Shown here piece by piece: positions 5,414 to 18,668 of a stretch of DNA of 64,000 nt. A model generated the notes under the pieces. It made no database searches. It saw only the letters and a program-made list of their open reading frames with translations, and was not told the DNA's origin. Positions within the stretch are counted from its first letter, which is position 1, and the number at the start of each line of letters is the position of its first letter. The stretch comes from Sphingomonas sp. 28-66-16 (GTDB lineage: Bacteria > Pseudomonadota > Alphaproteobacteria > Sphingomonadales > Sphingomonadaceae): positions 62,001 through 126,000 of the forward strand of contig NCGF01000005.1 of the NCBI GenBank assembly GCA_002281485.1, in the 5' to 3' direction. A program made the position numbers and the translations under genes.

Positions 5414-6331
5414 ATGAGTGCGATTGACCCGTTGACCCACCTTGACCAGCTCGAGGCCGAGGCTATCCACATTTTCCGCGAGGTCGTGGCCGAGTGCGAA
5501 CGACCCGTGCTACTCTATTCGGCGGGCAAGGATTCGGCAGTGTTGCTGCACCTCGCCCGGCTCGCGTTCCATCCGGCCCCGCCGCCCTTTCCCTTGCTGC
5601 ATGTCGATACGACGTGGAAGTTTGCCGAGATGTACCGGCATCGCGACGAGGCGGCGCGCGCAAGCGGAATGCGTCTGGTCGTGCATCAAAACCCCGAGGC
5701 CCGCGCCCGCGGCATCAACCCCTTCGACCATGGTGCGCTGCACACCGATCTCTGGAAGACCGAAGGGCTTAAACAGGCGCTCGACGCGCATGGCTTCGAC
5801 GCCGCGTTCGGCGGCGCCCGCCGCGACGAGGAAAAGAGCCGGGCCAAGGAGCGCATCATCTCGTTCCGGACCGCCGCGCACCGCTGGGATCCCAAACGCC
5901 AGCGCCCGGAACTGTGGTCGCTGTTCAACATGCGGCACGGCAAGCGCGAAAGCCTGCGCGTCTTTCCGCTGTCGAACTGGACCGAGCTCGACGTCTGGCA
6001 ATATATCGCCGCCAAGCGCATCGCGCTGGCGTCGCTGTATTTCGCCGCCCCGCGCCCCTGCTACACGCGCGATGGCCAGCTGTTCGTCGCCGATGATCCC
6101 GCGCGGATCGCAGGCGTGCTCGGGGTCGCGCCCGCTATCGAAGAACGCTGGGTGCGGTTTCGCACGCTCGGTTGCTTTCCGCTCAGCGCGGCGGTCGAGA
6201 GCCGCGCAACCACGGTGTCGGCGGTGATTGCCGAGACGCTGGCGAGCATGACGTCCGAACGCCACGGCCGCACGATCGACCGCGAGGGCGATGCGAGCAT
6301 GGAGCGCAAGAAGCAGGAAGGTTATTTCTGA
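5414..6331 (+). CDS. cysD: sulfate adenylyltransferase subunit 2
   Basis: A 305-residue CysD, the catalytic subunit of ATP sulfurylase (ATP + sulfate to APS + PPi). The PP-loop is [16 protein letters not shown] near residue 35; other family segments are [29 protein letters not shown] and the C-terminal [10 protein letters not shown]. The start at 5414 gives the usual length; the larger open frame upstream overlaps the M23 gene. The stop overlaps the cysN start by one base (TGATG). Acts with CysN, which supplies GTP-driven activation. Confidence 0.97.
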
Positions 6332-8205
6332 TGACCGATCCTGCCGAGTCGATCGACCGCGTCGAGCGGTCTCAGCACAAGACGCTGCTGCGGTTCATCA
6401 CTTGCGGCAGCGTCGACGATGGCAAATCGACGCTGATCGGGCGGCTGCTTTACGATTCGAAATTGCTGCCCGACGATCAGCTGGCGGCCCTCGCGGCGGA
6501 TTCGGCGCGGGTCGGCACGCAAGGCGACGCGCTCGATTTCGCGCTGCTCGTCGATGGGCTCGCCGCCGAACGCCAGCAGGGCATCACAATCGACGTCGCC
6601 TACCGCTTCTTCGCGACGGCGCGACGGAAGTTCATCGTCGCCGACACGCCGGGGCATGAACAATATACGCGCAACATGATCACCGGCGCCTCGACTGCCG
6701 ATGCCGCCGTCATCCTTGTCGATGCCCGCAAAGGGGTGCTGACGCAGACCCGGCGGCACACGATCCTCGCCCATCTCGTCGGCATCCGTCGCTTTGTTCT
6801 TGCCGTCAACAAGATGGATCTGGTGGGCTATGACGCCGATGTCTTCGCGGCCATCGCCGCCGCCTATGGCGACTTCGCGCGCGCCGCCGGGGTCGGCGAC
6901 GTCGTGGCGATCCCGCTTTCGGGATTTGCCGGCGACAATGTGTTCGCGCCCTCGCCCAACATGGCGTGGTATGGCGGGCCGACATTGATCGAACATCTCG
7001 AAGCCTTGCCCGTCGACGGTGCCGCGCGCCAGGCCAGGCCGTTTCGCATGCCGGTGCAATGGGTCAATCGACCCGATCCCGAGTTTCGCGGCTTTGCCGG
7101 CCAGATCACCAGCGGCGTGGTTTCGCCTGGCACGGTGGTGTGCGTGATGCCGTCGGGCCGGGCGACGACGGTCGCGCGGATCGTGACGGGGGAAGGCGAT
7201 CTCGACCGCGCCGTCGCCGGGAAATCGGTGACGCTGACGCTCACCGACCCGGTCGATTGCGCGCGGGGGGACGTGATTGCCGCCGCCGCCGAGCCGCCGG
7301 CGACGACCGACCAGTTTGAGGCAACGCTGGTGTGGATGGATGAACAGCCGCTGCTGCCGGGGCGCGGCTATTGGCTGAAGCTGGCAACACAGACCGTGAC
7401 GGCGCGGGTGCGCGCGCCCAAATTCATGGTCGACGTCGACACGCTGGCACATCTGGCGACGCGGACACTCGACCTGAATGCGATCGGCGTCACCACGATC
7501 GCGACTGACCGGCCGCTCGTTTTCGAACCCTATGCCGACGACCGCGCGCTCGGCGGGTTCATCCTGATCGATAAACTGACCAACGCGACGGTTGCTGCCG
7601 GCATGGTCAGTTTTGCACTGCGGCGCGCGGACAACGTCCATCCGCAGTTGAGCGACGTCGATCCGGCTGCGCGTGCGGCGCTCAAGCAACAAGCGCCGAA
7701 ATTATTGTGGTTCACCGGCCTGTCGGGCGCGGGCAAGTCGACGATTGCCAATCTGGTCGAGGCGCGGCTGCATCGAATGCACCGCCATACCTTCCTGCTC
7801 GACGGCGACAACGTCCGCCAGGGCCTGAACCGTGATCTGGGCTTCACCGCGGCTGACCGCGTCGAGAATATCCGGCGCGTCGGCGAGGTATCGCGGCTGA
7901 TGATCGATGCCGGTCTCATCGTCATCGCGGCCTTCATCTCGCCGTTTCGCGCCGAGCGAGCAATGGTGCGCGACATGCTGCCGCCGGGATCGTTCGTCGA
8001 AATTCACATCGACACGCCCCTTGCGACCGCCGAGGCGCGCGACGTGAAGGGGTTGTATGCGAAGGCACGCGCCGGCCAGCTCGCCAACTTCACCGGCATC
8101 GATTCGCCCTATGAGCCGCCCGAGGCGCCCGATATCCGCATCGATACGACGGTGATGACGGCCGAGGAGGCCGCCGATCTTATCGTCAATCGCCTGATGC
8201 TTTGA
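6331..8205 (+). CDS. cysN/cysC: bifunctional sulfate adenylyltransferase subunit 1 / adenylylsulfate kinase
   Basis: A 624-residue fusion. Residues 1-440 are the EF-Tu-like GTPase CysN with G1 GSVDDGKST (26-34), G3 DTPGHEQY and G4 NKMD. From about residue 450 follows APS kinase CysC, with P-loop GLSGAGKST (463-471), [10 protein letters not shown] and FISPFRAER. Together with CysD it takes sulfate to PAPS. Fused CysNC (NodQ-like) is common in alphaproteobacteria. PAPS serves cysteine synthesis or, as donor, sulfotransferases; the three sulfotransferase-like genes just downstream make the second use plausible here. No cysH, cysI or cysG is seen in the window. Confidence 0.96.
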
Positions 8206-8231
8206 ACGATGCCGCGTCGGCGGGCATGGCC

Positions 8232-9230
8232 TCAGACGGCCGGGGGACTGTTGCCCTGATGGAGCCGGGGGTGATCGGGCCGGAGTGGCGGCTCGAAATT
8301 CTCCCGCCGCCAGATCGCATTTTCGGGTTCTTCCGGGCTTGGAATTGCGAAGTCCAGATAGCCGAAATAGGTCAGGATGACGCGTTCGGCGGTATCGACG
8401 ATGGCGGTTCGACCATGCAGGAAGCGCGTATTGTCGAGCATCAGCAGATCGCCGGCATTCCACTCGATTTCCGCGGTCAGCCGATCGCCTGTGGCCTTGA
8501 TCGCCTGCAACCACGCCTCCGGCACCGCCTGCCCGTCGTCGAGGACGGGATGATCGGAACGGCCATGGTTGAAGCGCGCGAACAACAGGAAATTGCCGAA
8601 GGCGAGCTCATCGATGAACATCGGCTTGTGCAGGGCAGGCCGGGTGAAGACGCGCAGAATGCCCGTATCGGGATAACGCCGAAAAAAATAAGGGCAGCCC
8701 GGCGGGGGGGCGGCGAGCTGTGCATCGCTCGGCTCGGTCGTGCCGAGCCAATAGTCGAGCAGCGCCGGCCAGACGGGCTTGATGTAGAGCAAGCGTCGTG
8801 GCTCGAGCGCCCGACGGACCGGTTCCGGTAGTTCGCGCGCCAGAGCGACTCCGTCGCAAATCGTGGTTCGCCCGCCCGCTCGGGGCGCGATCTGGCACCC
8901 GAAAAAGGCGACATCGGGCTTCCACGGTTCGCGCGACAGCTCGGGATGAAGGGCAAACGCGCCCTTTCCCGCGTCGACCGTGAACACATTGGCGGCGGCA
9001 TCGACCGGCTCGCGACCGGGGCTCTCGTTGACGACCGAGGTCGCGCAAAACTGCTTGGCGAAGGTCCCGAACTGCGCGACGTCGACGCCGAACCCGCTGA
9101 ACAGCAGGGCGCCGTGGCTTTTGTAAAGCGCGATGATCTGCGCCTTGTCGAGCTCCAGGATCGATCGTTCGCCCGTTGCCTCGATCAATACGTGCGGCTG
9201 ATACAGTGCAGGCAGGTGGATATCGGGCAT
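8232..9230 (-). CDS. TauD/TfdA-family Fe(II)/2-oxoglutarate dioxygenase
   Basis: A 332-residue protein with the TauD fold. Proposed iron ligands are H95 and E97 in LHPEL (an HxE variant of the usual HxD) and H262 in DNTRFLHGRT; R264 or R273 would bind 2-oxoglutarate. The segment LHPELSREPWKPDVAFFGC is typical of a bacterial subgroup of unknown substrate. The start at 9230 is the first Met before the conserved N-terminus; the open frame continues upstream but overlaps the divergent gene. Convergent with cysNC (26 bases between) and divergent from a sulfotransferase-like gene (48 bases between). Confidence 0.88.
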   Translation of the reverse strand: MPDIHLPALYQPHVLIEATGERSILELDKAQIIALYKSHGALLFSGFGVDVAQFGTFAKQFCATSVVNESPGREPVDAAANVFTVDAGKGAFALHPELSREPWKPDVAFFGCQIAPRAGGRTTICDGVALARELPEPVRRALEPRRLLYIKPVWPALLDYWLGTTEPSDAQLAAPPPGCPYFFRRYPDTGILRVFTRPALHKPMFIDELAFGNFLLFARFNHGRSDHPVLDDGQAVPEAWLQAIKATGDRLTAEIEWNAGDLLMLDNTRFLHGRTAIVDTAERVILTYFGYLDFAIPSPEEPENAIWRRENFEPPLRPDHPRLHQGNSPPAV

Positions 9231-9278
9231 GGCCCGGCAGGGATAGCGGCTAACCTCCGCTTCGGCTATAGGCGGGCC

Positions 9279-10247
9279 GTGCCTTTGACCTTCGACGAAC
9301 TCTTCTCCTCCCCGGACCATTACCTCCAATCGTTCGAGGAGGGGCAAGCGGTGTTCGTGCCGATGGACCGCGCGGCATATCACCGATCGATCTTTCTCGA
9401 CCATCGGATTTCCCCCGCCGCAGACCAAAAAATGGCTGTGCCGGTCGCGAGCCTCGCCGCGCGCACCCCGGTTGCGCGACCGCTGTCGTGGATTTTCCAT
9501 ATGGCCCATTGTGGATCGACCCTGCTCGCCCGCGCGCTCGACGATCCGGCGGCGAGCCTGGTGCTGCGCGAGCCGCTGTCGCTGCGGCAGACCGCGATCC
9601 AGCGCACCCCCGCGCGGCTGCCGCTCGTGCTCGCGATGCTCGGCAAAAGCTATCGCGCCGACGCGCCAACCTTGGTCAAGGCCAACGTCCCGGTCAATTT
9701 CCTGTTGCCGCAACTCGCGGCGGCGGACCCCGGGGCGCGAGCGGTTCTGCTCTATTTGCCGCTCCGTGCCTATCTGCTCGCGATCCTGCGCCACGACAAT
9801 CACCGCACCTGGCTACGGAACGTGACCACGCAGCTCGCGCCCTATGTCGGTGACTGGTCAGCGTTGAGCGATGCCGAGCGTGGCGCTGCCTTGTGGCTCG
9901 CACAGGTGAACGCCTTCACCGATACCCTTGCGGTCATGAAGAATGCCCGCACGCTTGATGCCGAACGGTTGTTCGACGATCCGGTGCCGGTGCTCAAGGC
10001 CGCCGCCGAGCATCTTGGCGTACCGATCGACGGAAGCGCCCTGGCGGCGGTCGTGGCCGGCCCGCTCTTCTCGACCTATTCCAAGAACCCCAGCGTGGCC
10101 TTCGACAACGCCGCGCGGATCGCGCGCGCCGCCGAGGTGGCCGAGGCGATCGCCCCCGAACTCGACGTTGCACGGGCCTGGGTGGCGCGCCATGCCCCCG
10201 GCGGCGCCCCCGATGCCGCCCTGATCGACGCGGCGCTCATTCGCTGA
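9279..10247 (+). CDS. sulfotransferase-like P-loop protein (paralog 1)
   Basis: A 322-residue protein with a nucleotide-binding loop WIFHMAHCGSTLLARAL at about 71-87, resembling the 5'-phosphosulfate loop of sulfotransferases but with His/Cys in place of Pro/Lys or Arg. The middle part AVLLYLPLRAYLLAILR occupies the place of the 3'-phosphate-binding strand. It is a paralog of the gene at 11593: they share the loop, the LLY-PLR-YL segment and a C-terminal GP-F-T-SK motif. I chose GTG at 9279 because the preceding frame overlaps the dioxygenase; there is no convincing ribosome-binding site. Enzymatic activity is inferred, not shown. Confidence 0.75.
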   Translation: MPLTFDELFSSPDHYLQSFEEGQAVFVPMDRAAYHRSIFLDHRISPAADQKMAVPVASLAARTPVARPLSWIFHMAHCGSTLLARALDDPAASLVLREPLSLRQTAIQRTPARLPLVLAMLGKSYRADAPTLVKANVPVNFLLPQLAAADPGARAVLLYLPLRAYLLAILRHDNHRTWLRNVTTQLAPYVGDWSALSDAERGAALWLAQVNAFTDTLAVMKNARTLDAERLFDDPVPVLKAAAEHLGVPIDGSALAAVVAGPLFSTYSKNPSVAFDNAARIARAAEVAEAIAPELDVARAWVARHAPGGAPDAALIDAALIR

Positions 10248-11529
10248 TGCTGAGCGCGGTGGCAGGCGCGCCTTCGCTGTCGGCGGCGACGGCGTAGAAG
10301 CGGCGCAGCAGATCGCGCTCGGTTGGCGTGATGTAGGGATTCCACACGTCGAAGATCAGGATCGCGCGTATCTGGCCGGATCGGTTCCAGGCCTCATGCT
10401 CGATGGTGTCGTCGAAGGCCCAAGCCTCGCCGACGCGCCAGTCCCGCGTCTCGCCGCCGACGCGGAAACTGCAGCCTGGCGGGACGATCAACGGCAGATG
10501 GATGATCGTGCGCACATTGCTCACGCCGGTGTGCGCGGGCAGATGCGCGCCAGGCTGCAAAATCGAGAAGAATATCGTCGGGGTCCGGCCCGGCAGGTCC
10601 GACAAGGGGAGTGCCTCGACCGCAGCTGCCGTCAGCGGCGCGCGGGCGCAAGCCGCCTCGTCGCGCCGTCCGTCCTTCCACAAATGCATCGCGCCCCACT
10701 CCAGCGAATGGTCGAGCCTCGACCATTTGTTCTGCGGCGTGCCCGGGGGCATCGCGACATAGGGGTGGAGCGCGCCCGCATCCTCGGTCAGGATCGACTC
10801 GAGCTCGGTTCTGATGAGCGCGGTTTTCGCCTCGATCTCGGCGAACCAAGGAAATTGCTCGCGGGCGAAGAATTCCTCGGCCGGTAGGAACGGGAAGTGC
10901 ATGCCGGCGCAAGCGTTGGCGTAGATCGCTCGCCGCCCTAGAGCATGATCGATACAGGCATCGACACGGCGGCGGTCTGCCGGTCCGACCGCAGCGCGTG
11001 CGTCGGCCAGACCGCGATCGACCGCTGCGGCGAAGCGGTCCCGCTGTCCAATCACATAGCGCTGTGCATGATCGAACATCGACTCGAGCGCCGGGCTGCG
11101 ATCTTCGATCGCCGGCGCCATCGCCAGCACGTTGCTCCAGCGCCCGGCCGCGCCCGCTTCGTCGCCGCGCCGTTCGAGCAGTTCGGCCATTCGCACCAGT
11201 GCCATGAAATGACGCTGATCGATCGCCAGCGCGCCGTTGAGCGCGGCCTCCTCCCCCGCGTCGTCCCCCGCCTCGCGTCGTGCCTTGGCCAGGTTCATCC
11301 ACAGATCGGGCGCGATCGGATCAGCGGCGATCGCCCGCTGGAACAGAACGGCCGCATCCTCTGCCCTGCGCTGGGCAAGCGCATGCATGCCGAGCGCGTT
11401 CAGCGCTACCGGGTGATCGCCCCCGCTTGCGAGCACGCGCTGAAACAACGCCATCGCCACGTCGGTACGGCCGGCGCGACGCGCGTGGATCGCGTCGTCG
11501 AGCATCTGTTGGAGGGAGGGAGCCGCCAT
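10237..11529 (-). CDS. TPR plus aspartyl/asparaginyl beta-hydroxylase domain protein
   Basis: A 430-residue two-part protein. Residues 1-140 form about three to four TPR units (for example HPVALNALGMHALAQRRAEDA). Residues 240-405 are an AspH-type cupin dioxygenase: H333 in HLPAHTGVSNVRTI and H378 in FDDTIEHEAWNRSG are the expected iron ligands and R388 the 2-oxoglutarate ligand; WNPYITPTER is a family tail. AspH enzymes hydroxylate Asp or Asn side chains; the TPRs probably present the substrate. The 3' end overlaps the end of the convergent sulfotransferase-like gene by 11 bases; the 5' end is 63 bases from another divergent one. Confidence 0.9.
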   Translation of the reverse strand: MAAPSLQQMLDDAIHARRAGRTDVAMALFQRVLASGGDHPVALNALGMHALAQRRAEDAAVLFQRAIAADPIAPDLWMNLAKARREAGDDAGEEAALNGALAIDQRHFMALVRMAELLERRGDEAGAAGRWSNVLAMAPAIEDRSPALESMFDHAQRYVIGQRDRFAAAVDRGLADARAAVGPADRRRVDACIDHALGRRAIYANACAGMHFPFLPAEEFFAREQFPWFAEIEAKTALIRTELESILTEDAGALHPYVAMPPGTPQNKWSRLDHSLEWGAMHLWKDGRRDEAACARAPLTAAAVEALPLSDLPGRTPTIFFSILQPGAHLPAHTGVSNVRTIIHLPLIVPPGCSFRVGGETRDWRVGEAWAFDDTIEHEAWNRSGQIRAILIFDVWNPYITPTERDLLRRFYAVAADSEGAPATALSISE

Positions 11530-11549
11530 CCATGCTGCATATCGCCAGC

Positions 11550-11576
11550 CTGCCGACTAGACAATCGGAACGGCAG
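11550..11576. promoter_or_regulatory. inverted repeat between divergent AspH and sulfotransferase-like genes
   Basis: CTGCCG (11550-11555) is matched by CGGCAG (11571-11576), with a nested CCGA/TCGG pair inside. It lies in the middle of the 63-base gap between two divergent starts, so it could be a shared operator or simply an RNA hairpin in one leader. Based only on symmetry and position. Confidence 0.3.
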
Positions 11577-11592
11577 TGCACATACAGACGCG

Positions 11593-12654
11593 ATGATGCT
11601 GGCGAGTTTGTCGGGCGGCCAGTCAGGTCGGCCAACCTTGATCGAGGATGCCGCGCGCGATGCGGTCTGGCTCGCCCATCGCTACGATCCGGGCCATGAC
11701 GCGGTGCATCTGCTCCCGGTCCCGCGCGGGGAGCATCGCCGGGCGACTTTCCTGACCGACGAATATCTGCCGGCGGGACTTGCCCCGCTGGTGGTCAGAC
11801 GCAGCGATGCGATCGCGGCGGCGCCACCGACGGCTCCGCTTCACTTCGTGTTCCATTCGGCATTTTGCTGTTCGACGTTGCTGGCGCGGGCATTCGATCG
11901 CCCGGGTTGGGCGATGGGACTGAAGGAACCCGTGATCCTGAACGATATGATCGGCTGGCGGCGACGCGGTGGTCAAGGGCCCGATATGGCGCAGGTGATG
12001 GACGATGTGCTTACCCTTCTTGCACGACCATTCGGTTCGGGCGAGATGGTCTGCGTCAAGCCATCGACGGCAGCGAATGCGCTGGCCCCGGCAATGTTGA
12101 CGCTGCGGGATGATGCCTGCGCGCTGCTTCTTTATGCGCCGCTGCGGACCTATCTCGGCTCGATCGCGCGCAAGGGTCTCGACGGGCGACTATGGGTAAG
12201 AACGCTGCTGACCGGCATGATCGACGACAGGCTGGTCGACCTGGGCTTTGGTCCGCGCGACTATCTGGGCCAGACCGATCTGCAGGTCGCAGCGGTCGGC
12301 TGGCTGGCCCATCAGCAATTATTCGCCCGGCTGGTCGATCAATTCGGCGCCTCGCGCGTGCGGACGCTCGACAGTGCGACGCTGATGGCCGATCCGCCAG
12401 CCGCGCTCGCAGCGTTCGCCTCGTTCACGCGGCGACCGCTCGATCCAGTCGCGATTGCGGAGATCGCCGCCGGGCCAGCGTTTCGAACGCATTCCAAATC
12501 GGGCGCGGCGTTCGATTCGCGCGATCGGGCCGCAGAACTCCGGCGCGGTGATACGCTGCATGCCGACGAAATCGAGAAGGTCGCCGTCTGGGCGGAAGCG
12601 GTTGCAGCGGCGACCGGGGTGGCGACAACCGCGCCCGCGCCGTTGATCGACTAG
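11593..12654 (+). CDS. sulfotransferase-like P-loop protein (paralog 2, CCST loop)
   Basis: A 353-residue paralog of the protein at 9279. The loop reads FHSAFCCSTLLARAF (87-101): the Gly of the other copy (CGST) is Cys here, which would change phosphate binding. Shared features are LKEP after the loop, VCVKPSTAANALAPAM, ALLLYAPLRTYLGSIARK and the C-terminal AGPAFRTHSKSG. Two ATGs (11593 and 11596) are possible starts. Divergent from the AspH gene. It probably belongs to the same sulfotransferase-like superfamily; whether it transfers sulfate or has another role is open. Confidence 0.72.
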   Translation: MMLASLSGGQSGRPTLIEDAARDAVWLAHRYDPGHDAVHLLPVPRGEHRRATFLTDEYLPAGLAPLVVRRSDAIAAAPPTAPLHFVFHSAFCCSTLLARAFDRPGWAMGLKEPVILNDMIGWRRRGGQGPDMAQVMDDVLTLLARPFGSGEMVCVKPSTAANALAPAMLTLRDDACALLLYAPLRTYLGSIARKGLDGRLWVRTLLTGMIDDRLVDLGFGPRDYLGQTDLQVAAVGWLAHQQLFARLVDQFGASRVRTLDSATLMADPPAALAAFASFTRRPLDPVAIAEIAAGPAFRTHSKSGAAFDSRDRAAELRRGDTLHADEIEKVAVWAEAVAAATGVATTAPAPLID

Positions 12655-12658
12655 AGGC

Positions 12659-12907
12659 CTAGCACCCGCCGCCCTCTGCCAGCCCGCCGCAACTTGCCGG
12701 GCTGCGGTTGGAGGCGCGCACCGCCTCGCGCTCCATGTCCCACTCGCGCACCGTCTTGCAGGTCTTGTACGTTTGCACCAGCGATCCGGTCACGGGAAAC
12801 TGGCGGCAGACGATCTTGTCGGGCGAGGTTGCCGAGACCTTCTTGGGCGCGGGGTTAGGGACAGGTGGCGGATCATTTGCGACGAGCGCCAACAGGAACA
12901 GGATCAT
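12659..12907 (-). CDS. small secreted Cys-containing protein, function unknown
   Basis: An 82-residue protein with a short hydrophobic start (MILFLLALVAND) suggesting a signal peptide, then a Pro-rich stretch and a conserved-looking core DKIVCRQFPVTGSL followed by KTCKTVREWDMERE. Small sphingomonad proteins with VCR-x-TGS-x-C-x-EW patterns are, as I recall, common and uncharacterised. Four cysteines (34, 50, 73, 82) fit a periplasmic disulfide protein. The start at 12907 has GAGGGC upstream; the larger open frame to 13885 is only a shadow of the next gene. Ends 4 bases from the convergent paralog-2 gene. Confidence 0.7.
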   Translation of the reverse strand: MILFLLALVANDPPPVPNPAPKKVSATSPDKIVCRQFPVTGSLVQTYKTCKTVREWDMEREAVRASNRSPASCGGLAEGGGC

Positions 12908-12976
12908 AGCGATGCCCTCATGACGGACCAGGATATGGCAGTGGATGGAATTGCTGATAGGGGTAAAGGCTGAACC

Positions 12977-14629
12977 ATGTCGACCAAACTTGTCAAGCGT
13001 CGCCGCCCGGGGGGCTTCCCCCGTCCGCCTGCGGCGAAGATCGAACGGCTGCTCGCGGCCGGGGACGTCGCGGGCGCGGCAATGCTCGCGGAGCGGGCGC
13101 TGGCGGCGGGCCAGGTCAGTCCCCTGATTCTCAACCTCGCGGCGTGGCGTAAGGAAGAAGCGGGCGACTTTGGCAGCGCGCATAGCTTGCTTCAGCGTGC
13201 GCTCAAACTCAGCCCGGGAGACGTGACGATTCTCGGCTCGATCGGCGCGGTTCTCCGCAAGCAGGGATTTCTGGACGAGGCGCTGGCGGTGCTCGACGGC
13301 GTCGTCGCTGCAGAACCGCGCCACGCAGCGGCCTGGCTCGAGCGCGGCTACGTCCTCGATGCGCAGCGCGCCGCTGCGGCCGCCACCGCAAGCTATGAGC
13401 AGGCGATCGCGCTGGATCCCACCCTCTCTCCGGCACTCGGCAAACTGAGCGATGCTGCGGCCCGGCGGGGCGAGGCGACGGTCGCCCAGGATTATGCCCG
13501 GCGAGCGCTTGCGCTCCACCCGAACGAGCCATCGGCGGTGTTCGCGCTGGCGGTGCTGGCGGTGGAGGCACGCGATGGCGTACGCGCCGAGGCGCTGCTC
13601 CGCCCGCTGCTCGAGACCCCGCTCGCGCCAGACGATCGCACGCGCACGCTGACATTGCTGGGCGATGCCCTCGACCGATCGAACCGGCCGGTCGACGCCT
13701 TCGCTTGCTACCAGGCGGCGCAGGCCAATTTCCGCGACGCATATCGGGCCGTCCTCGAGCCGACATCGGACCGGCCGTCGCACCGCAGCTTCATCGAGAC
13801 GATCCGGGGGCAAGTTGTTGCGACGGGTCGGGTCGATCATCTTCCGCCTCCCGCCGGGCCGGTCCCCGGCGCGGCGGCGACGCATGTTTTCCTGCTCGGT
13901 TATCCACGTTCGGGAACGACGTTGATCGAGAATGTGCTGGCAAGCGCCGGCAATGTCGTTGCGCTGGAGGAGCGTGATACGCTGGCCGACATCGATGCCG
14001 CGCTATTGACCAACGAGGGCATCATGCCGCCGCTCGACGCCCTCGATCCCGCGCTGCTCGATCGCCTGCGGACCGCCTATTGGGCGCGCGTCGCGACGCT
14101 GGGGGGGGCAGTCGAGGGCAAGGTTTTGGTCGATATGAACCCCTTCAACGGGATCAAGCTCCCGATCCTCTCCAGGCTGTTTCCGACAGCGCGCTTCGTG
14201 ATCATGCGGCGCGACCCGCGCGACGTGCTGTTGAGCTGTTTTCGCGTCAATTTCATGCCGGGTGCGGCGGCCTGGGCGTTTAGCGACCTGGAAGAGGCCG
14301 CACGCCATTACGATGCCCTGATGCGACTGATCGATGTCGCGTGCGACACGCTGCCAATCGCTTTCCACGAGGTTTTCTACGATCGGCTGGTGCTCGATTT
14401 CGAGCCGACGGTGCGCGCCTTGGCCGATTTCATCGGCCTCGCCTGGACCGACGATTTTACGACCTTTGCCACCACTGCCAAAAAACGCGGCGTCCAGACG
14501 GCGAGCGAAACGCAGGTCCGCAAGGGCCTGTATAACGGCGGCGGGCAATGGCAGCGTTATGCCGATCAACTTGCCCCGGTGCTGCCGATCCTCGCGCCCT
14601 GGATCGACCGGTTCGGCGCGACGCGCTAG
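12977..14629 (+). CDS. TPR-containing sulfotransferase
   Basis: A 550-residue protein. Residues 20-260 contain about six TPR-like repeats (for example HAAAWLERGYVLDAQRAAAA). Residues 300-545 are a classical sulfotransferase domain: 5'-phosphosulfate loop FLLGYPRSGTTLIENVL (305-321) and 3'-phosphate strand FVIMRRDPRDVLLSCF (407-422). Both PAPS-binding elements are intact, so it should bind PAPS made by CysD/CysNC 5 kb upstream. TPR-sulfotransferases are frequent in marine bacteria and sphingomonads; substrates are usually unknown. It is divergent from the small secreted gene (69 bases). Confidence 0.92.
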   Translation: MSTKLVKRRRPGGFPRPPAAKIERLLAAGDVAGAAMLAERALAAGQVSPLILNLAAWRKEEAGDFGSAHSLLQRALKLSPGDVTILGSIGAVLRKQGFLDEALAVLDGVVAAEPRHAAAWLERGYVLDAQRAAAAATASYEQAIALDPTLSPALGKLSDAAARRGEATVAQDYARRALALHPNEPSAVFALAVLAVEARDGVRAEALLRPLLETPLAPDDRTRTLTLLGDALDRSNRPVDAFACYQAAQANFRDAYRAVLEPTSDRPSHRSFIETIRGQVVATGRVDHLPPPAGPVPGAAATHVFLLGYPRSGTTLIENVLASAGNVVALEERDTLADIDAALLTNEGIMPPLDALDPALLDRLRTAYWARVATLGGAVEGKVLVDMNPFNGIKLPILSRLFPTARFVIMRRDPRDVLLSCFRVNFMPGAAAWAFSDLEEAARHYDALMRLIDVACDTLPIAFHEVFYDRLVLDFEPTVRALADFIGLAWTDDFTTFATTAKKRGVQTASETQVRKGLYNGGGQWQRYADQLAPVLPILAPWIDRFGATR

Positions 14630-14756
14630 GCGCAGCATTCAGCGCCCGCGCGCCCTTTCCGTTCGACCTGGAGCGTTTTGCAATCGCACGGCAGGACCCC
14701 TTAGCCCCTGAAAGGCAGGGGTGAGGCGGTTTGATCACAAACAGTTCTAAAAACAC

Positions 14757-14788
14757 AAAAAAAGGGGCGAGCCTTGCGGCCCGCCCCT
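14757..14788 (-). terminator. Rho-independent terminator of the TonB receptor gene
   Basis: AGGGGCG (14763-14769) pairs with CGCCCCT (14782-14788), extended by GCC/GGC around a TTGC loop; read on the minus strand the hairpin is followed by seven U (14757-14763). It sits 24 bases beyond the receptor stop codon. Confidence 0.88.
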
Positions 14789-14811
14789 GATATTCGCTCG
14801 ATGGCCGTCCG

Positions 14812-17800
14812 TCAGAACTTGACGGTGGCTGTCGCCGCGACCCGGCGTCCCAGCGCATCATAGGTCGATGGGTAGGTGTTGCCGCTGTTGAACGACGTCG
14901 ACCCAACCGTGCCACCGACGACCGGTGGCTTCCGATCGAACAGATTGCTGACCGTGAAGGTCAGGTCGAGGTGATCGCCGACGGCGAAGCGGGTCGCCAG
15001 ATCGAAATAGTCATAGGACGGAATTCGTCCGAAGTTGAACGTCTGTCCGGCGAGGGCGCCGCTCCCGATCGTGCCGGAGAACGTCGTCACGCCGGGCTCG
15101 ACCTTGAACCCGCTGAGATGGCGCCAGTTGAGCGAGACGTCGATGCTCTGGAACGACAAGGTGGTGCGCTGATTCCAGCTGAATTCAGGCTGCAGCGACC
15201 CAGGGGTCGACGATGGACCTGCCGATGCCGGCGAGCCGCAGTTCTGACCGTACAAACCAACGCAGTTGTAGACGGTGGAAACCGGCGAAGCCGCAAAGCG
15301 CGACCGGGCCGTCCAGTTACCCAGGAATGCGAGGTTCAACTTCGCGAATCCAAGGTCACGCCGATAGTTGGCGGTGAGATCGATGCCGTCGGTCAGAACC
15401 TTGCCGGCGTTCCCCGGCAGGATGCTGAGACCGCCGGTCGTCGCCGGATCGCCGTCAAGTGCGCCCGTTGCCGGATTGCGCCGGATCGACAAGCAGTTGG
15501 GGTTGGTGACGCTGGCCGCCGTGATTCCGGCCCCCGCCCGATCGCCAAAGCACAGGTTGTAGGCCGCCCCGGCGGTCAGCTGCGAAATCGCCTGATTGAT
15601 CGAGATGTTGTAGTAATCGATCGAGATCGACAGTCCGGGGACGAAGTTTGGCTGGAACACCACACCGAGCGTGTACGAGTCCGACTTTTCCGGGTTGAGG
15701 TTGATGTTACCGCCGCTCGTAATGTTCGCCTGAGCTGCGGTTGGCGTGTTGATGTTGCCGATCGAGGCTGCCGGGGCACCCTGCGCAAGGCAAACGGCGC
15801 GAAGATTGGCATTCGTCGTCGGTGCCAGGCCAGCGCAGGCGTCGAACGACAGGTTGGTCAGGCCCGTGGAGACCGGCGCGAACAATTCGCCGATATTGGG
15901 CGCCCGAACCGCGCGCTGATAGGTGCCGCGGATCCGCAGACCGCCCAGCGGCTCCCAGGTGGCGCCGCCCTTGTAGGTCAGCGTGCTGTAGCCGCGCGGA
16001 ACCGCCGCATCGACCTTGTAGTCCGAATAGCGGATGCCGCCTTCGACCGTCAGGCTCTTGAAAAACGGCTTGTCGGTGACGACCGGAATGTTGAGCTCGC
16101 CATAGCCTTCCTTCACATTGTAGCCGCCGGTGAAGCTCGGCGCCGCACCACCGGCACCGCCCAGTTCACCAGGGGTTTGCGACAGCGTGTCCGACCGCTG
16201 CGATGCGGTGTATTTGCGATACTCGGCACCCACGGCGAACCCGATCGGGCTGTCGGCGAAGGGCGACGAAACGCCCAGATCGCCGGTCAGCAGCGCCCGC
16301 GCCTGCGCCAGCGACGTGAAGTTCGTCGTCGTGCTGTCGGCGGTCAGGTAAGGCACCTGATTCGGCGTGATCGACCCTTCCGGACCGAACAGGTTGACGG
16401 GGACGCACCCGGTGCCTGCCGTGATGCTGGCGCCGCCATTGGGCGCCCCGGCGAGACAGGTCGTCGTGTTGGTCGCAAACACCGCAGCGCGGAGACGCGA
16501 CGTCAGCACATAGTTGCGGATCGCCTGGACATTTTCCGATTCGCCGTACGATCCGTTGATGTCGAGCTTGATCGAGTCGGTGATCGCGAACTTCGCGCCG
16601 ATGCGATAATCGAAGATCGTCGTCGTGAAGTCCGACAAGCGCGAGCCGACCTCGGTGGTGCGCCGGTTGGTCGCCACCGTGAAATAGCGGAAGTTCGGAT
16701 CGGCGGTCGTGGTCGCCGTCGCCGCCGCATTACACTGCGCAACGGTCAGCTGGGCGACCTGGACCCCGGCTGCGGTGAAGGTCGGGTTGTTGTCGCAGAA
16801 GGTCTGGCGAGCAGCAGCCGGCAGATAGGGGTTCGAGAACGGAATGGCGAGGCTCGAGCCGAAGGTGCCCGACGGCGCGATGATCGTGCTGACCGTGTTC
16901 TTCGAAAACAGCCCACGCGAATAGACCTCGATCTTGTCCGAAACCTCGTACCGCGCGGCGCCATAGATATTGTAGCGCTCGAACGGGGTCTGGAAGATGT
17001 TGTACGGATTGAAGTTGAACGGCACGACCGGCGATACCAGCGCGCCCGTGGCCGGGTTGATCTGACGATTGCCCGACACGCGCGCCGCGCCCGTGCCGAG
17101 GCCCGAGATCGAGAATCGCGTCGGCACCGTGGTGCCCGAGCCGCCGGCGTTGCCGCTGGTCGACGTATAGTTGTTGACCGAGAATTGGCGCGCGCCCTGA
17201 TAGACGGGATCCGAATGCTGGTAGCCGACCGAGAGCACCGCGTTGCCGCGACCATCGTCGAAGTTCGCGCCGATCGTCAGGTCGCTGCGGAAATAATGGC
17301 CATCACCCTTCCCGGTGATCTGGTTCGAAACCGACGCTTCGACCCCCGAGAAATCCTGACGCGTGATGAAGTTGAGCACGCCCGACACGGCGTCCGCGCC
17401 ATAGGTCGTGGCAGCGCCGCCGGTGACGACGTCGACGCGCTGGATCAGGGCAAGCGGAATGTTGTTGAGATCGACGCGACCGACCGAGCTTGCCGGCACG
17501 ATACGGTTGCCGTCGAGCAGTACGACGTTGCGGAAGTTGCCGAGGGCGCGAAGATCGACGTAGGCAGCGCCGCCATTGCCGTTATTGACGGCCGAGCCGA
17601 TGCTGGGTGCCGCACCGGGAAGATCGCGCACGATCTGTTCGGCGGTGTTGGTCTGGCGCAGCGCGAGCTCTTCGGCGCCGATCACGGCGACCGGCGTCGA
17701 GCTGGCGAGGTTTGGGTTCCGGATCAGACTGCCGGTGACGACGATGTCTGTGTTGGTCGTGGGCGCCTCATCGGCAGCCGGCTTCTCGGCCGGCGTCGCG

Positions 17801-17892
17801 GGCGCGTTCTGCGCAAAGGCCGGTGCCGCGACCAGCGACACGCTGGCGAACAGCGTGGAACCAAGCAACATAGCTCGTGTTGTCGTTTTCAT
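14812..17892 (-). CDS. TonB-dependent receptor (large, 1026 aa)
   Basis: A 1026-residue outer-membrane receptor. The signal peptide ends near SLVAAPAFAQ; then a Pro/Ala/Glu-rich stretch and the TonB-box region NTDIVVTGSLIRNPN lead into the plug (GAEELALRQTNTAEQIVRDL, LLDGNRIVP, VVTGGAATTYGADAVSGVLN). The barrel ends in a terminal Phe (ATATVKF), as required for outer-membrane insertion. The start at 17892 is preceded by AAAGGGG. Substrate unknown; the size and plug resemble receptors for peptides, glycans or complex carbon sources rather than classical siderophores. Its convergent neighbour is the TPR-sulfotransferase, with its own terminator in between. Confidence 0.95.
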   Translation of the reverse strand: MKTTTRAMLLGSTLFASVSLVAAPAFAQNAPATPAEKPAADEAPTTNTDIVVTGSLIRNPNLASSTPVAVIGAEELALRQTNTAEQIVRDLPGAAPSIGSAVNNGNGGAAYVDLRALGNFRNVVLLDGNRIVPASSVGRVDLNNIPLALIQRVDVVTGGAATTYGADAVSGVLNFITRQDFSGVEASVSNQITGKGDGHYFRSDLTIGANFDDGRGNAVLSVGYQHSDPVYQGARQFSVNNYTSTSGNAGGSGTTVPTRFSISGLGTGAARVSGNRQINPATGALVSPVVPFNFNPYNIFQTPFERYNIYGAARYEVSDKIEVYSRGLFSKNTVSTIIAPSGTFGSSLAIPFSNPYLPAAARQTFCDNNPTFTAAGVQVAQLTVAQCNAAATATTTADPNFRYFTVATNRRTTEVGSRLSDFTTTIFDYRIGAKFAITDSIKLDINGSYGESENVQAIRNYVLTSRLRAAVFATNTTTCLAGAPNGGASITAGTGCVPVNLFGPEGSITPNQVPYLTADSTTTNFTSLAQARALLTGDLGVSSPFADSPIGFAVGAEYRKYTASQRSDTLSQTPGELGGAGGAAPSFTGGYNVKEGYGELNIPVVTDKPFFKSLTVEGGIRYSDYKVDAAVPRGYSTLTYKGGATWEPLGGLRIRGTYQRAVRAPNIGELFAPVSTGLTNLSFDACAGLAPTTNANLRAVCLAQGAPAASIGNINTPTAAQANITSGGNINLNPEKSDSYTLGVVFQPNFVPGLSISIDYYNISINQAISQLTAGAAYNLCFGDRAGAGITAASVTNPNCLSIRRNPATGALDGDPATTGGLSILPGNAGKVLTDGIDLTANYRRDLGFAKLNLAFLGNWTARSRFAASPVSTVYNCVGLYGQNCGSPASAGPSSTPGSLQPEFSWNQRTTLSFQSIDVSLNWRHLSGFKVEPGVTTFSGTIGSGALAGQTFNFGRIPSYDYFDLATRFAVGDHLDLTFTVSNLFDRKPPVVGGTVGSTSFNSGNTYPSTYDALGRRVAATATVKF

Positions 17893-18131: not shown

Positions 18132-18668
18132 ATGCGCAATCGCGTCGCACTTTTATCCGCTTGCCTCGCGCTCTGGCCGCTGCCGGCGATCGCCGCGGAG
18201 CCCGAGAGCCGCGGTGATGCCCTGGTATCGGCGCTGGCGGCATGCCGCACCGTTGCGGCCGACCAGCGGCTCGCCTGTTACGAACAGGCGAGCGCGGCGC
18301 TGATCGCCGCGCGCGACCAGCGCCAGATCAGGATCGTCGATCGCGAAACCGTCCAGCGGGCGAAACGGTCGCTGTTCGGTTTTTCGCTTCCCCACCTCAA
18401 TCTCTTCGGCAGCGGCAAGGACGACCCCCGCGCCGAATCCGAAACCGACGTGAAGGAGATCACCGGCACGATCGTCAACGTTCAGCCAGCCTCTTATGGG
18501 CTCTGGGTGTTCAGCCTTGCCGAGGACGGCGTCTGGCAATCGACCTCGTCGTCGCTGACGTTCGAACCGCGCAAGGGCGACAAGATCACCATCAAGGCGG
18601 GGATGCTGGGGCATTACACCGCGAAGATCGGGAACGACCGGGCCGTGGACGTGAAGCGGCTGCGCTGA
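18132..18668 (+). CDS. secreted protein of unknown function
   Basis: A 178-residue protein with a clear signal peptide (MRNRVALLSACLALWPLPAIAA). The mature part begins with a C-x(n)-RLACYEQ motif (residues 37-51), seen at the start of many small proteobacterial exported proteins, and ends with a beta-rich segment from EITGTIVNVQPASYG to the C-terminal VDVKRLR that looks like a small barrel or OB-like fold. Transcribed divergently from the TonB receptor (239-base gap with no further gene) and convergent with clpB. I do not recognise a specific function. Confidence 0.72.
   Translation: MRNRVALLSACLALWPLPAIAAEPESRGDALVSALAACRTVAADQRLACYEQASAALIAARDQRQIRIVDRETVQRAKRSLFGFSLPHLNLFGSGKDDPRAESETDVKEITGTIVNVQPASYGLWVFSLAEDGVWQSTSSSLTFEPRKGDKITIKAGMLGHYTAKIGNDRAVDVKRLR

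Follow-up and report, generated by a model that had tools for sequence, protein, structure and literature searches.

Why do two Fe(II)/2-oxoglutarate dioxygenases and three sulfotransferase-type proteins stand beside a TonB-dependent receptor (TBDR) in Sphingomonas sp. 28-66-16, and what do they modify? The genes lie in a 64,000-nucleotide stretch of contig NCGF01000005.1, which we call the window; the genome is 3.1 Mb and 86% complete. A preliminary description of the window had proposed that they act, together with an adjoining operon for 3'-phosphoadenosine 5'-phosphosulfate (PAPS), in the hydroxylation and sulfation of a peptide, protein or glycan linked to outer-membrane uptake. Our best explanation, with a probability of roughly 0.4, is a receptor-modification island, in which the receptor and a divergent exported protein, up18, are served by a hydroxylase (AspH) and a sulfotransferase-fold protein (STB) as dedicated modifiers. 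We infer this joint function mainly from a neighborhood that recurs in relatives and from a receptor residue, Thr679, that follows the presence of STB.

Receptor and enzymes as recurring neighbors

The receptor gene (14812-17892, minus strand; 1026 aa; PF00593 and PF07715) is divergent from up18 (18132-18668, plus strand), which encodes an exported protein of 178 aa with no Pfam match; up18 is conserved with the receptor and was absent from the preliminary gene list. AspH, with a tetratricopeptide repeat (TPR) domain (10237-11529, minus), is likewise divergent from STB (11593-12654, plus). Between STB and the receptor are the genes for a small exported protein of 82 aa (12659-12907, minus; motif C..TGS..C.T..EW, no Pfam family match) and for an accessory TPR-sulfotransferase (TPRST; 12977-14629, plus). 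On the far side of AspH, the STB paralogue STA (9279-10247, plus) adjoins its partner, a TauD-like dioxygenase (8232-9230, minus; PF02668, 99 bits). Start codons in the window are our choice. The genes named in the preliminary description are all present as open reading frames, in the divergent and convergent pairs that it reported.

Two samples of related loci were compared. In the same-genus sample, AspH was sought in 101 genomes and up to 20 kb was fetched around 40 of the best places; neighbors were scored by tblastn with the window proteins, and later by profiles over the window and 98 loci. The named-genome sample was taken from the best 80 of 588 confirmed AspH loci, of which 14 under 19 kb were excluded, leaving 66 long loci for the tally. 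It covers Sphingomonas, Sphingobium, Novosphingobium, Sphingopyxis, Erythrobacter, Croceibacterium, Blastomonas, Sandaracinobacter and metagenome-assembled genomes, and at least 10 of its loci are places of the same-genus sample (L182, L187, L188, L202, L204, L206, L209, L211, L214, L222). Sequences with an internal stop were excluded as seeds. The closest AspH among the best 80 is that of Sphingomonas glacialis (75%).

AspH matches were found in 93 of the 101 genus genomes, many of them spanning the catalytic domain only. Long matches of at least 45% identity occur in 36 genomes, and these include 25 of the 27 genomes with STB relatives at the same threshold (exceptions G021 and G027). The long named-genome loci contain a TBDR in 58/66 cases, any sulfotransferase in 57/66, the STA/STB family in 53/66, the small exported protein in 51/66 and up18 in 47/66. 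Other types are less frequent there: TPRST in 15/66, TauD in 3/66 and a PF13759-type protein in 2/66. Since this sample was chosen by AspH, the counts describe the companions of AspH and not how often AspH accompanies the receptor. The neighborhood of hydroxylase, sulfotransferases and receptor is conserved across Sphingomonadales in both samples, and the co-occurrence with TonB receptors that it offered as a check is seen. The genes adjoin one another in relatives, and not in this genome only.

The profiles resolve three modules: the divergent receptor and up18; AspH, STB and the small protein, sometimes with TPRST; and TauD with STA. Four genomes carry the second module without a receptor in the fetched stretch (L037, L038, L040, L042), have the first module elsewhere (L158-L161), and have TauD-STA at yet another place (L162-L165). 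TauD is beside an STA/STB-family gene in the window and in 10/10 fetched loci with TauD, four of these apart from the other modules, and in 4/4 named-genome loci with TauD, one of them under 19 kb. Thus, TauD-STA is a separate pair that can sit far from the remaining island. The interval between xseA/M23 and clpB is a recurring hotspot for the island.

Enzyme families and the receptor residue Thr679

The PF05118 match of AspH (138 bits; curated cut-off, 22.6) places it in the aspartyl/asparaginyl beta-hydroxylase family, and hydroxylation of Asp or Asn is predicted for it. Its profile matches the catalytic part of human AspH (5jqy) with E = 5e-47. The metal and 2-oxoglutarate residues H333, H344, H378 and R388 are invariant in 35/35 sequences, with spacings of 11, 34 and 10, close to those of H679, H690, H725 and R735 of the human enzyme. 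No signal peptide is seen in AspH by eye.

TPRST has a Sulfotransfer_3 domain (PF13469, 95 bits), and at E <= 0.001 its sulfotransferase domain matches protein-tyrosine sulfotransferases (TPSTs) only, the best at 3e-10; by domain and sequence it belongs to the TPST-like sulfotransferases. For STA and STB, Pfam gave nothing up to E = 1 and NCBIfam nothing up to 0.001, and the best E in a PDB profile search was 0.76. The predicted structure of STB has a sulfotransferase fold, with TPSTs as the nearest PDB structures; the alignment of STA with STB suggests the same fold for STA. These proteins appear to form a sulfotransferase family that Pfam and NCBIfam leave unnamed. Their paralogy, claimed earlier, holds, with seven STA rows 23-32% identical to the window STB. 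A class-wide profile search found the family in 18/385 genomes at E <= 0.001, five of these at 2e-32 or better. The catalytic residues given for TPST2 in the available text of PMC5562738 are R78, E99, K158 and S285. By motif comparison with the TPST2 sequence, E99 and K158 correspond to E113 and K157 of STA/STB, both invariant in 27/27; S285 was unplaced in this comparison. AspH and TPRST match protein-modifying families by sequence and STB does so by fold, which supports this part of the earlier interpretation.

What in the receptor goes with these enzymes? Receptors adjoining up18, AspH or STB were aligned, with identical ones merged (147 to 133), and the clade of the window receptor contains 83 of them, including L236. 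The column of Thr679 (codon 15856-15858, minus strand; counted from MKTTT at 17892, residue 699 in stop-to-stop script numbering) is Thr in 66/66 STB-positive receptors and in 1/17 others (Fisher p = 3e-16, uncorrected for kinship). The STB-positive receptors are 62 with STB at the locus and the four mentioned above (L158-L161) with STB elsewhere in the genome; in each of the 62 loci where the family is near the receptor, an STB-type member is present (at least 44.5% identity). The 17 receptors without STB have Asp (10), Val (4), Gly (2) or Thr (1). Eleven belong to genomes without an STB relative in the genus search; five named genomes showed no STB in a profile search run without a positive control; and the genome of L054 has STB at another locus.

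In STB-positive receptors, 308 columns are at least 90% conserved. The largest difference among them is that of Thr679 (0.94), followed by that of Thr637 (0.82) and then by a value of 0.60. Five of five independent contrasts are for Thr679 and none against, and it is the sole column of 591 with that score. Of 22 columns tested for correlated evolution (those with the 12 largest differences and 10 random draws), Thr679 has the highest likelihood ratio, 31.5, and the next is 21.0. The best differences for TPRST and the small protein over the receptor columns are 0.65 and 0.75, as compared with 0.94 for STB; in columns at least 90% conserved with STB, those for up18, AspH and the small protein reach 0.28, 0.27 and 0.35. 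STA is nearly all in one clade, so its comparison is uninformative, and the comparison for AspH within the clade includes only four receptors without AspH. A RAPNIGELF motif precedes Thr679 and can be aligned with KAPNLGQLY of BtuB in a weak second segment. By likeness to loop 7 of FepA, we take the region to be a putative surface loop. The pattern fits two mechanisms: STB modifies Thr679, or Thr679 meets a ligand that STB has modified.

The cysDNC operon and variant loci

At lower coordinates than TauD are CysD (5414-6331, plus; TIGR02039, 440 bits) and CysNC (about 6331-8205, plus; NF004035, 968 bits), for PAPS synthesis. The preliminary description had included this operon in the system, and this part of its proposal does not stand: CysD and CysNC are present at 0/40 same-genus AspH loci (tblastn with the window proteins), and either one at 0/66 long named-genome AspH loci. 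Conversely, AspH, Oxy5, TauD, ST3, STA/STB, up18 and the small protein were found at 0/20 control cysDNC loci from 19 other genomes (E <= 1e-8), two of which hold TBDR-like genes. We have therefore rejected the operon as part of the system. By the refuting test that the preliminary description had set, the operon drops out, and the linkage of the hydroxylase, sulfotransferases and receptor stands.

CysNC matches at E <= 0.001 occur in 101/101 genus genomes, and close CysNC in 100/101, this one included (67-75% identity in the others); G015 (83% complete) has weak matches only. The window operon is the genus-typical copy. Its lack of the sulfite-forming genes cysH and cysI, pointed out earlier, says little, since no relative of the cysH product of this genome was found by tblastn in the fetched 10-16 kb of the 20 control loci, and cysH is present at another place in this genome. 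Next to this gene, which by eye is an APS-reductase-like cysH, are a second cysD and a relative of cysN (C13:46237-49225, L094); the latter was matched only over positions 13-458 of 623, and its C-terminal kinase part appears degenerate by eye. With this second copy beside cysH, the window operon could be the PAPS source for sulfation in this strain, a possible role that would be private to the strain and outside the conserved unit.

The loci vary in other ways. Nine receptor-up18 loci lack AspH and have, near the receptor, a TPR-type protein that matches the PF13759 (2OG-FeII_Oxy_5) profile (L101-L103, L139, L140, L150, L151, L155, L171); Pfam was run on L101 and L102 only, and L140 and L171 share one genome. 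By this profile match, the protein is a predicted parallel hydroxylase type at the same receptor group. At locus L072, AspH and a TPR-sulfotransferase occur together with TauD, an STA-type gene and a dioxygenase of the PF13759 type. The islands at L044-L047, L049, L051 and L057 each have two closely spaced AspH paralogues of opposite orientation, and the second copy at L057 has an internal stop. An AspH remnant (positions 356-401, 78%) is seen at L096 (8097-8363) by an otherwise normal receptor-up18 pair, whose receptor carries Asp in the Thr679 column. The genome of the window has a second TPR-AspH of 36% identity (C13:12420-13472, L005), and the profiles found no receptor or sulfotransferase in the surrounding 20 kb. 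A search of viral contigs gave nothing. The model of up18 has a helical part with a Cys pair and a C-terminal beta domain (pLDDT, a local confidence score, 80; pTM, a predicted template modeling score, 0.43), with no PDB match at E <= 0.001.

Candidate substrates and known systems

What would the enzymes modify? Enzymes adjoining a receptor may act on the receptor or on its ligand. We prefer the receptor because both sulfotransferase classes are closest to protein sulfotransferases and the known relative of AspH is a protein hydroxylase. The four genomes with AspH, STB, the small protein and TPRST elsewhere still keep the receptor with up18, which counts in favor of the island, as does the tendency of like enzyme sets to group on the receptor tree. 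From these data we infer substrate, site, compartment and purpose as follows. The conserved unit would consist of the receptor, up18 and two dedicated modifying enzymes, AspH and STB, often with the small protein and in some lineages with TPRST; TauD-STA would be a second hydroxylase/sulfotransferase pair that may join the island. No signal peptide is seen by eye in the enzymes, which would therefore modify the receptor in the cytoplasm, while it is still unfolded and not yet exported. STB would use PAPS to sulfate Thr679, within a loop that has a cysteine nearby and that we take to lie at the cell surface. The TPR domain of AspH would bind protein, and AspH would hydroxylate an Asp or Asn. 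The receptor surface would then bear fixed sulfates and hydroxyls, which would tune how it binds ligands or how phages and bacteriocins recognize it, and in ten receptors without STB, Asp may be a charged substitute for sulfated Thr. In full, the proposal is of a dedicated bacterial system in which TPR-AspH and TPST-fold enzymes hydroxylate a TBDR and sulfate it on Thr in the cytoplasm, ahead of its export, and in which Asp is the encoded substitute at many loci without STB; we put it forward tentatively, and it may well be wrong.

Several observations weigh against the receptor as substrate. The receptor L221 has Thr without STB, and L054 has Gly despite STB at another locus of its genome (L097). 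Thr637 (script 657) also follows STB, though less well (0.94 vs 0.12), so Thr679 is not the sole such column. With a tree built without script columns 641-760, the Thr679 contrasts are four for, none against and one uninformative, and column 716, 61% conserved, scores five. A Fitch count gives six changes for each trait, and kinship thus leaves few independent events of Thr679 and STB. The column that best follows AspH is G136 (script numbering; 5/7 contrasts), and no Asp or Asn is convincing. AspH is common to receptors with STB and those without it, and the two enzymes may therefore have different substrates. STB has no equivalent of Arg78 of TPST2, the K158 position is Met in TPRST, and TPSTs act on Tyr, whereas the candidate site here is Thr. 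Finally, we know of no precedent for the export of a sulfated barrel protein.

The strongest competitor, which we still consider somewhat unlikely, is that the enzymes make or finish a small ligand (a peptide, siderophore or glycan) taken up by the receptor, with Thr679 lining a binding site adapted to the sulfated form. The covariation also fits ligand recognition, and receptor clade and enzyme set go together: on a tree of 81 receptors tagged by their modifiers, those with similar enzyme sets tend to cluster, as judged by eye. Methanobactin operons, in the available text of PMC3621798, likewise join a sulfotransferase, MbnS, with TonB receptors, and Methylocystis methanobactins carry a sulfonated threonine. 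However, protein modification is the known activity of the AspH and TPRST families, and no scaffold-making gene was seen, a weak point since Pfam identified only one of the clusters that the other open reading frames form around 55 loci (45 listed). It is improbable that the small exported protein is the substrate, as a microprotein hydroxylated and sulfated in the cytoplasm. Apart from its frequency at the named-genome loci, it occurs at 28/49 receptor-up18 loci with a modifier within 8 kb and at 3/25 without one (74 same-genus loci, partly chosen by AspH), and in four genomes it adjoins the enzymes and not the receptor. Its family is nevertheless general in the genus (54/61 genomes, including the island-free G002 and G004). 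Among 96 distinct sequences, Tyr after residue 25 is present in 26 and Asp or Asn between the Cys residues, a loose pattern, in 45; no column follows STB well, with only five sequences lacking STB.

Could the genes share only the hotspot between xseA/M23 and clpB, with separate tasks and a Thr679 pattern carried along by transfer of whole islands? The hotspot does recur in both samples, and 25 of the 74 receptor-up18 loci have no modifier. The same partners are also together where the stretch showed no xseA or clpB (such as L044-L047 and L049), the neighboring column 700 ignores STB (0.92 vs 0.94), and four genomes keep Thr with STB far off; we see little chance for this explanation. Least probable is that AspH acts on a lipid, as OlsC and LpxO do, unrelated to the receptor. 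The NCBIfam models of both match it below their cut-offs, whereas its fused TPR domain, the strong match to human AspH and the frequent TBDR at its loci argue against a lipid.

How does the receptor-modification island compare with known systems? Most known cases of protein sulfation and Asp/Asn beta-hydroxylation come from the animal secretory pathway, and few are bacterial. Human AspH and the window protein have a TPR and a PF05118 domain in common; the latter is bacterial and by eye cytoplasmic, and the epidermal growth factor-type target motif of AspH is present in 0/81 receptors scanned. TPST1 and TPST2 are Golgi membrane enzymes for Tyr. RaxX/RaxST of Xanthomonas is not known to have a linked TonB receptor or AspH. 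It would share with the island the bacterial sulfation of a gene-encoded product (PMC6637879, available text), which is a peptide there and a candidate receptor here. In a literature search of partial coverage (few subscription journals, no preprints), no listed title or abstract opening described such an island. Coupling of both enzyme types to a receptor in a widespread island, with one residue named, would make bacterial protein sulfation directly testable. The nearest published parallel that we found is the threonine sulfonation of methanobactins (PMC3621798, available text). Their operons have a sulfotransferase with a TonB receptor in common with the island, and also the MbnA precursor and MbnB; no MbnB-type (DUF692) enzyme or precursor was seen among the ten window proteins scanned, other open reading frames of the loci having been scanned in part. 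Thus, a sulfotransferase is paired with a TonB receptor in both systems, with sulfonated Thr in the methanobactin and, in our proposal, a candidate Thr in the receptor.

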